Below are positions 4,424 through 5,467 of a DNA stretch of 6,188 nt, piece by piece. Below the pieces are notes generated by a model. It was given only the letters and a program-made list of their open reading frames with translations. It did not search any database and was not told the origin of the DNA. Position 1 is the first letter of the stretch. Every line of letters starts with the position of its first letter. Origin of the DNA: Candidatus Aerophobota bacterium. Its GTDB lineage: Bacteria; Aerophobota; Aerophobia; Aerophobales; B3-G15. A program made the translations under genes and the position numbers. The stretch is taken from assembly GCA_030607765.1 (NCBI GenBank), contig JAUWJJ010000073.1, forward strand, positions 1 to 6,188, read 5' to 3'.

Positions 4424-5467
4424 TTACTTTAAGTTGTGCAAAAATACATCAAAATTTGCAGGAATATATTGTAAACCAATTGCCGAATACCGTTTACCCT
4501 TGATTCCTTCTATGCTGTTGTCATTAATGTTTATATGAGTTACTTTTATATCTGCTTTTTTAATGGAATTTTCATCAATGACATAGGAATGATTTTGAGT
4601 GGTAATCTCAACCTTTTTACTTTCTAAATTACGTACAGGTTGATTTACTCCATGATGACCACATTTCATCTGCTTTATTTTTCCTCCCAGGGCTATTCCT
4701 AAAACAAGATTACCAGAAGAGATGCCACATATAGGCTTCTTTCCCAGTAGATTTTTTACTGTATTTGCTATTGTAGCGAAATTTTTTGAATCTTCCGGTC
4801 CGCTGGAGATAACAATTCCATCGGGGTTTAGTTGTAAGATTTTGTTAACTGAAGCTCTGAGCGGTACTCGAATTACCTGACAACCTGCATTCTTTAAACT
4901 GTCAAACAGACTTTTAGTTCCACCCAGATCTATAACTACAATCTTATATTTTACATTATCTGGAATTTCCCAGAGGACAACTTGAGGAACTGTAACTTCA
5001 GATATTAAATTTCTTCCCTGGTAAGAAAACGTTTTAGCTTTATCCATTAAACTCTTTACATTATAATCTCTGGTTGATACGATACCCCTCATCTCACCAT
5101 TATCTCTAATATGTATTACTAATCCTCTCGTATCGATTCCTTCGATACCTACTATGTTATGTTTTCTCATAAAAGTTTCTAAACTTTCTTTAGCTGACCA
5201 GTTGCTGTAAATACGGCTATTTTCTTTGACAATTAAGGCTTCAACCTGGGCAGCATTAGATTCGAAACCTGCTTCATTAATTCCGTAATTGCCGATAAGT
5301 GGATAAGTCATGGTAAGTAGTAACCCGCGGTAGGAAGGATCGGTGATTAGTTCTTGATAACCAACTACTCCTGTATGAAAGACTGCTCGCCCTATTTTTT
5401 CTCCCGTTGCTCCAAATGAACGGCCCTCAAAAGTAGTTCCATCCTCTAATACTAAAACTGCTTTCAT
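4424..5467 (-). CDS. carA: Carbamoyl phosphate synthetase small subunit with degenerate glutaminase site
   Basis: Homologue of the glutaminase subunit that normally hydrolyses glutamine and passes ammonia to CarB. At 347 residues it is slightly short (E. coli 382, B. subtilis about 364). The N-terminal CPSase_sm_chain domain (about 1-150) is normal, with GYQELITDPSY, TYPLIGNYGIN and GIDTRGL. A class I glutamine-amidotransferase fold follows (about 174-347), but its active site is lost. The nucleophile motif GICLGHQ reads GISSGNL (248-254), so Cys is Ser250. QxHPEA reads QYIPAN (333-338), so His is Ile335 and Glu is Ala337. GPGDP reads GPEDS (223-227). QNHGF reads QNHSY. The tail after this point is only about ten residues and lacks the SPGPHD segment. 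There is no frameshift or internal stop. It probably acts as a structural or regulatory partner of CarB, which would then use free ammonia. First gene of the carAB operon; GGAG lies 5 nt before ATG. Confidence 0.96.
   Translation of the reverse strand: MKAVLVLEDGTTFEGRSFGATGEKIGRAVFHTGVVGYQELITDPSYRGLLLTMTYPLIGNYGINEAGFESNAAQVEALIVKENSRIYSNWSAKESLETFMRKHNIVGIEGIDTRGLVIHIRDNGEMRGIVSTRDYNVKSLMDKAKTFSYQGRNLISEVTVPQVVLWEIPDNVKYKIVVIDLGGTKSLFDSLKNAGCQVIRVPLRASVNKILQLNPDGIVISSGPEDSKNFATIANTVKNLLGKKPICGISSGNLVLGIALGGKIKQMKCGHHGVNQPVRNLESKKVEITTQNHSYVIDENSIKKADIKVTHININDNSIEGIKGKRYSAIGLQYIPANFDVFLHNLK

Follow-up and report, generated by a model that had tools for sequence, protein, structure and literature searches.

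What becomes of a carbamoyl-phosphate synthase (CPS) whose small subunit, CarA, has lost its entire glutaminase triad? The usual account, as given in the part of PMC6022934 cited here, is that ammonia-specific CPS occurs in animals and glutamine-dependent CPS in bacteria. The question is raised by a stretch of 6,188 nucleotides from a Candidatus Aerophobota bacterium (assembly GCA_030607765.1, contig JAUWJJ010000073.1), which we call the window and which contains the following features.

2-1099, + strand: GAF-SpoIIE phosphatase (flank)
1180..4419, - strand: carB, large subunit of CPS, full length, 1079 aa, both ATP-site residue sets conserved
4424..5467, - strand: carA, small subunit of CPS, glutaminase-dead, 347 aa, intact ORF identified by family search
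6008-6187, + strand: short ORF, unassigned, start only (flank)

Four bases separate the carA stop from the carB start, and both frames are intact; the 347-aa ORF at 4424-5467 (-) bears out the open carA frame claimed by the original prediction, which had been made from the sequence alone. We found no pyrimidine or nitrogen genes among the flanks of carAB in the window. The segment at 5500-6000, between carA and the + strand ORF, is AT-rich and non-coding, with a repeat-looking segment near 5720-5850.

Alignment of the window CarA to E. coli MG1655 CarA gave the following correspondences.

4718..4720, - strand: Ser250, codon TCT, at the catalytic Cys position (E. coli Cys269)
4463..4465, - strand: Ile335, codon ATT, at the catalytic His position (E. 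coli His353)
4457..4459, - strand: Ala337, codon GCA, at the catalytic Glu position (E. coli Glu355)
4706..4708, - strand: Leu254, codon CTT, at E. coli Gln273
4646..4648, - strand: Val274 at E. coli Gly293, an ammonia-tunnel position (Gln318 in human CPS1)
4793..4795, - strand: Glu225 at E. coli Gly243
4916..4918, - strand: Thr184 at E. coli Lys202

The claimed replacement of the catalytic Cys by Ser250, of His by Ile335 and of Glu by Ala337 is thereby confirmed, as are the claimed changes among glutamine-binding residues (Gln273 to Leu254, Gly243 to Glu225, Gly313 to Ser294 and Phe314 to Tyr295). Two further changes, Lys202 to Thr184 and Gly293 to Val274, go beyond that list; Ser47 and Asn311 are retained. 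We take the Gln273 and Ser47 positions to belong to the glutamine site and the Gly243 position to lie on its oxyanion side. Two features of glutamine-dependent CPS (CPS II), the Cys-His-Glu triad and a small residue at the Gly293 position, are therefore absent (Ser250/Ile335/Ala337 and Val274, respectively). Among 80 canonical CarAs, which were picked for possessing the Cys, His is present in 80 and Glu in 79. The window protein nevertheless belongs to the CarA family, with matches to TIGR01368 and to PF00988 plus PF00117, an N-terminal CPSase domain and a class I GATase fold. Because it scores 377.9 bits against TIGR01368, the NCBIfam model for 'glutamine-hydrolyzing' CarA, where the cut-off is 307.35, automatic annotation misnames the protein.

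We looked for close relatives with a normal site and found none, since the triad is absent from all ten nearest relatives. These (P0001-P0010, 97-59% identity), together with P0011 (53%), lack Cys, His and Glu alike. Among relatives assigned to an organism, the closest belong to Candidatus Aerophobetes (CarA P0009, 63%; CarB P0126, 84%). More widely, all three triad residues are present in 159 of 201 aligned CarAs (the best 80 of 162 loci from a scan of species genomes, 120 protein matches and the window), some of the remainder being incomplete. Among 203 distinct CarAs from fetched loci, the Cys is lost in 53, and 5 more end before its position. We considered Ser250 as a substitute nucleophile and rejected it, as the ten nearest relatives include Ala or Gly at this position and the clade described below has Gly, Gln, Ala or Val there.

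Since CarB plays no part in glutamine hydrolysis, we chose it to trace the history of the loss. Pairs with a CarB stretch that was missing or shorter than 440 aa were left out before counting, and the removal of 31 canonical CarB rows from 162 left 131 CarB N-halves for the tree. There the window belongs to a single clade of 44 rows, of which 38 have a glutaminase-dead CarA (hereafter dead), 6 are without CarA status and none is among the 80 canonical rows. Four rows (P0122, P0125, P0126 and P0127) were scored as dead on the basis of a dead CarA found on an equal-sized contig. A second tree was built carefully from 67 of these rows, after removal of 45 canonical, 14 dead and 5 without status, and so held only one of the six dead rows outside the clade. 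In it the clade has a support of 100/100 and 31 rows, 29 dead and 2 without status, on a stem of 0.22-0.23 changes per site. The CarB of the window lies within this clade, and its CarA lacks the triad. Other members come from Aerophobetes, Margulisbacteria, Omnitrophota, Ratteibacteria, the phylum of genome G020 (L009, AUK276; hereafter the L009/AUK276 phylum) and the phylum of genome G024. The last is probably Desulfobacterota, since its CarB groups with Desulfocapsaceae.

If this grouping holds, the CarBs most like that of the window should be paired with a dead CarA in other genomes. We read the 30 best loci per search. In Omnitrophota (145 genomes), the top 11 CarBs (65-67%) are all accompanied by a dead CarA. 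Among the lower-ranked loci, 18 have a CarA in the stretch, 17 times intact and once dead (L287, Ser-His-Arg; placed at the base of the clade by the CarB tree); the CarA of the remaining locus (L258, genome G331) is split across two frames and has all three residues, Cys, His and Glu. The G024 phylum (198 genomes) gave dead CarAs at the top 2 loci, 25 intact ones and 3 loci without a CarA in the stretch. Likewise, the top 5 loci in the phylum Margulisbacteria (74 genomes) are dead (Gln-Phe/Ser-Ile); the others comprise 10 intact CarAs, one that ends before the Cys and 14 loci with no CarA in the stretch. In the L009/AUK276 phylum (35 genomes), at least 11 genomes carry a dead CarA, accompanied in 7 of them by an intact one; there the intact CarA is paired with a split carB (about 550 codons), and the dead CarA, wherever the stretch extends far enough, with a carB of full length.

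Such coexistence is common. Among 25 genomes carrying a clade-type dead CarA, a canonical CarA was present as well in 15 (incomplete after its Cys in one case), and 10 have the dead type only, an absence that carries little weight because genome completeness is not stated. Another count, of 19 genomes, gave a second CarA in 7, intact in every case. In L263 (6611-16312) and in L029/L156, canonical and dead carAB are close neighbours on a single contig. Genome G059 (L159 and L192) has two different dead CarAs, Gly-His-Glu and Gly-Tyr-Val, and a canonical CarA was not found in it. As read from these sequences, the loss of glutaminase residues is old and spans multiple phyla, and often affects a second CPS beside a canonical one.

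A single origin of all dead CarAs is rejected, because six dead rows of the 131-row tree fall outside the clade and among canonical kin: Acetivibrio, Armatimonadota (a long branch, poorly placed), SpSt-1175, two Sporosarcina and Methanomethylophilaceae. These placements show that the Cys was also lost independently in other lineages, probably at least five. All six have a small tunnel residue (Ser, Thr or Ala) in CarA and keep the gate Cys232 in CarB. Dead CarAs without a usable CarB, which are absent from the CarB trees, come from eight Akkermansia loci, one Bacillota, one Muribaculaceae (which stood beside a canonical row in another tree) and one Margulisiibacteriota. The Akkermansia loci (L011, L012, L014, L016, L022, L024, L033 and L035), from metagenome-assembled genomes mostly of ruminant gut, have Gly for the Cys; no carB was found alongside them, and an intact CarA occurs in addition in two of the genomes.

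Within the clade, the Cys is present in none of 42 CarAs, the His in 3 and the Glu in 2. The nucleophile position varies among Gly, Ser, Gln, Ala and Val, so that no substitute nucleophile is conserved. The Gly293 position holds Gly or Ala in most canonical CarAs (69 of 80), whereas a larger residue, Val, Leu, Ile, Met or Phe, stands there in most clade CarAs (37 of 42). A profile search with 18 clade CarAs gave, among the best 120 matches, 115 further protein clusters, which were counted for the Cys, His and tunnel positions only, the Glu column being misaligned (canonical controls gave Ala). The Cys is absent from 114 of the 115 (P0258 has one) and the His from all; the tunnel residue is Val, Leu or Met in 98 and small in 17. 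Partial states also occur: L118 and L120 have lost only the Cys and retain His and Glu, and P0258 has the Cys and lacks the His.

Three positions of the window CarB bear on this history.

3724..3726, - strand: Cys232, tunnel-gate position, retained in the window (Thr in 31 of 34 clade CarBs)
3583..3585, - strand: Gly279, a clade signature (Thr in 64 of 65 readable canonical CarBs, Gly in 34 of 34 clade CarBs)
3343..3345, - strand: Cys359, at E. coli Pro360

The protein matches TIGR01369, with two ATP-grasp halves and their catalytic residues, an oligomerisation domain and an MGS domain. Of 19 positions taken to belong to the ATP sites, 18 have the E. coli residue in the window and in every readable clade CarB (34; 25 in the C-half); position 210 is Val in the window, as in 47 of 80 canonicals. 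Eight positions conserved in at least 95% of canonical CarBs are altered in the clade, against 0, 0, 0 and 1 in four canonical subgroups. Among the eight are Pro360 (Cys or Ala in 25 of 34), which we take to be a tunnel-wall residue, and Cys232, identified as the ammonia-gate residue by equating it with CPS1 Cys648 through a constant offset. The window CarB and its near kin P0122-P0126 retain Cys232.

We consider it likely that the window carAB encodes an ammonia-fed CPS in which CarA is maintained as a structural subunit, a bacterial counterpart of CPS1, and the clade enzyme probably uses free ammonia, like the human liver enzyme. CarA would have lost glutamine hydrolysis and been retained as a structural or allosteric subunit. 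Free ammonia would reach CarB from the solvent through a side path where the subunits meet, as PMC4655335 proposes for outside ammonia in human CPS1, and would react with carboxyphosphate in CarB. The resulting carbamoyl phosphate would feed pyrimidine synthesis or, in the independent case of Acetivibrio, probably arginine synthesis. E. coli CPS uses free ammonia only at a very high, likely unphysiological concentration, as stated in PMC6245113, which means that the clade would require either a higher affinity for ammonia or an ammonia-rich habitat. Several observations count against the ammonia reading: the window CarB keeps Cys232, a canonical CarA is also present in 15 of 25 clade genomes, 17 of the 115 further CarAs have a small tunnel residue, L118 and L120 lack the Cys only, P0258 has a Cys, dN/dS of dead CarAs is about twice canonical values, L157 has an in-frame TAG, and the window flanks lack pyrimidine and nitrogen genes.

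An alternative is that CarA has taken on a new catalytic or regulatory role, with a ligand in the old glutamine pocket, and that CarB makes carbamoyl phosphate from ammonia largely alone. The scaffold and the Gly241, His312 and Pro354 pocket positions, kept in at least 39 of 42 clade CarAs, would fit such a role, as would a dN/dS well below 1. However, the pocket varies between subclades, as the five residues at the nucleophile position illustrate, and gives no sign of one new conserved site, and we regard this reading as unlikely.

The gene neighbourhoods bear on the fate of the product and on the source of the nitrogen. Ten Omnitrophota loci have long flanks, some of which end at a contig edge, and dead carAB lies among pyrimidine genes in 7 of these loci. 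Three of them (L298, L300 and L303) have pyrR-pyrB-pyrC, a TIGR00375-like gene, carA and carB, then pyrK-pyrD-pyrF, with other genes interspersed; L302 has pyrE instead of pyrF, and L299, L304 and L305 show the downstream part of the cluster. NCBIfam confirmed seven genes in L300, four in L298, two in L304 and one each in L302, L303 and L305, the remainder being assigned by eye and pyrK and TIGR00375 by the best NCBIfam match under the cut-off. This context is the strongest sign that the dead-CarA enzyme produces carbamoyl phosphate in vivo. Of the remaining three loci, L296 has a purine cluster, L297 a cluster of mixed amidotransferase genes, and L301 a canonical carAB with genes for glutamate synthase and glutamine synthetase. 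Acetivibrio, where the loss was independent, has the order argC-argB-(one unassigned gene)-argD-carA-carB-argF. One fixed gene neighbourhood for dead carA is rejected, as the context differs among phyla.

In Margulisbacteria, an ANTAR-domain regulator gene adjoins dead carA in 7 of 8 genomes examined (the exception being L263). The vicinity of L265 also holds amtB (ammonium transporter), PII and a glutamate-dehydrogenase-like gene. A protein matching PRK13663 (NCBIfam, 'hypothetical'), presumably the same as DUF1846, is repeatedly found next to dead carAB in Ratteibacteria, Omnitrophota and the L009/AUK276 phylum.

L265:10981-11427, - strand: ANTAR-domain regulator, with homologues in L261, L262, L264, L266, L019 and L006
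L189:11939-13456: PRK13663 protein, by family search
L192:16175-17695, L297:17172-18710 and L301:11869-13404: PRK13663 proteins, by similarity to it

Glutamine nitrogen might still be used if another glutaminase, either a separate GATase or a PurF-like neighbour, supplied ammonia in trans. In its favour, dead carAB lies beside amidotransferase genes (purF-like, hisF, at times hisH, guaA) in the L009/AUK276 phylum and in some Omnitrophota and Ratteibacteria, and some neighbours keep a glutaminase, namely HisH in L182 and full GuaA and PurF in L296. Against it, the glutamine loop RYSTTG is deleted from all eight aligned PurF-like neighbours of dead carAB (L182, L181, L180, L179, L155, L157, L297 and L189), which keep the PRPP motif and, in 7 of 8, Cys1 (Ser in L189); the loop is present in L296 (dead carAB) and L146 (both carAB types). 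The loop-deleted PurF-like protein, which, like a GMP synthetase without its glutaminase domain, occurs with carAB in the L009/AUK276 phylum, Ratteibacteria and L297, is likely a second ammonia-type amidotransferase, judging from its motifs. Similarly, the GuaA-like neighbour is without a glutaminase domain in 6 of the 7 dead-CarA loci that have one (the exception being L296), and the domain is present in all 12 judged canonical loci and in L146. Three examples near dead carAB are as follows.

L192:10632-11615, L182:10256-11230 and L297:15292-16239: GMP synthetase ATP-pyrophosphatase domain alone, 316-328 aa

L192 also has two glutamate-dehydrogenase-like genes and a glutamine synthetase. Moreover, among the genes read in the window and in the seven loci with pyrimidine genes, no separate glutaminase adjoins carAB. 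Supply in trans is thus a distinctly doubtful explanation.

The dead CarA could also be a relic in decay that operon structure or subunit stability still preserves. The original prediction had instead proposed a maintained pseudoenzyme, with a dN/dS below 1 as one check, and the four dead CarA pairs of the clade with dS <1.1 gave 0.12-0.26 (NG86). Six canonical CarA pairs under the same limit gave 0.06-0.13, about half as much, and the CarB partners of the dead pairs 0.06-0.14; the input was the 14 most similar pairs per group, the rest having larger or saturated dS. As the dead CarA values lie well below 1 and above the canonical ones, dead CarA of the clade is under purifying selection that is somewhat relaxed. 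This relaxation is what a relic would show, as are a C-terminus beyond position 337 that is often shorter and the in-frame TAG in the dead carA of L157 (genome G048, contig C201), which may reflect decay of this copy, an error in sequencing or a different genetic code. Against a relic, the carA frames of the other clade members used are open, across several phyla and beyond a stem of 0.22-0.23 changes per site, and dead carAB is found repeatedly among pyrimidine genes. The predicted fold also speaks against it: an AlphaFold2 model of the window CarA (32 sequences) has a mean pLDDT of 91.8 and a TM score of 0.94 to E. coli CarA (0.92-0.94 over entries) and 0.86-0.88 to human CPS1, so that the fold is intact in the model. 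We therefore hold a relic to be very improbable. The maintained pseudoenzyme is supported by the loss in the ten nearest relatives and across a clade defined by CarB, by the predicted fold and by dN/dS. The claim that the loss is selective stands in part. Among positions conserved in at least 95% of canonical CarAs, those clearly lost (<60% of the clade) number 11 in the GATase domain and only 3 in the N-domain (the Ser47 position among the 3), but those kept (>=90% of the clade) are about equally frequent in both halves, 13 of 27 and 17 of 36, respectively. Lastly, an assembly or sequencing error has a negligible chance of explaining the triad loss and is rejected, as three separate codons are changed in an intact frame and all ten nearest relatives, on other contigs and from several sources, share the loss.

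Returning to the ammonia-fed enzyme, we favour, with some reserve, a broader account in which bacteria evolved their own stable ammonia-specific CPS, long ago and separately from animals, often beside a glutamine-dependent one. The tunnel would have been closed at the residue used by human CPS1 and the CarB gate retuned. In some phyla the enzyme would be part of a wider glutamine-free set (loop-less PurF-like protein and GMP synthetase without a glutaminase domain, with glutamine synthetase and glutamate dehydrogenase sometimes close by), so that nucleotide synthesis would draw on an alternative, ammonium-based nitrogen economy. Our search of the openly licensed PMC literature found no report of such a bacterial dead-glutaminase CPS clade. 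A multi-phylum clade together with independent losses amounts to a repeatable natural experiment in the change from glutamine to ammonia, bearing on the order of the changes (Cys alone first, with tunnel and gate later?) and on the role of CarA after glutaminase loss. In addition, the database name 'glutamine-hydrolyzing' is wrong for the clade proteins, which affects metabolic models of uncultured bacteria.

Ammonia-dependent NAD synthetases function without a working glutaminase (PMC3376133). In those enzymes and in GATase-less GMP synthetase subunits, which likewise lack a working glutaminase, the domain is absent or separate, whereas the window CarA retains it in a dead form. The carbamate-kinase-like CPS of Pyrococcus makes carbamoyl phosphate by another route (PMC6022934, in the section cited) and has an unrelated amino-acid-kinase fold, whereas the window CarB is an ATP-grasp protein. 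Allantoin-derived carbamoyl phosphate, described for Atribacteria in the cited portion of PMC6469976, was considered and gave no lead for the window.

The window system shares with E. coli CarAB (CPS II) its subunits, their order, the predicted fold and the catalytic residues of CarB, and most of the residues taken to form the CarB allosteric site. In E. coli CarAB the triad is present, the tunnel is open and glutamine is used, whereas the window CarA lacks the triad and has Val274 in the tunnel. CPS1 of Rana catesbeiana is ammonia-specific with a silent glutaminase domain (PMC4655335); it retains the triad and is silenced by another residue, whereas the window CarA has lost all three. Human CPS1, according to the same paper (PMC4655335), uses ammonia only, has Ser for the Cys, and has Gln318 at the Gly293 position, where it blocks the glutamine tunnel. 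The window system is like it in the Ser for Cys, the retained glutaminase domain, the filled tunnel position and the intact synthetase sites. Human CPS1, however, is one fused chain that needs N-acetylglutamate, and the window system consists of two bacterial subunits. The gate Cys is kept by human CPS1 and replaced in most of the clade. The clade arose within bacterial CarAB (CPS1 was not among the tree rows), and pyrimidine genes lie near it in relatives. With a glutaminase domain retained without its triad and two ORFs in place of a single fused polypeptide, the window CPS, as read from its sequence, resembles CPS I by anatomy but, not being fused, is not counted as a member of it.
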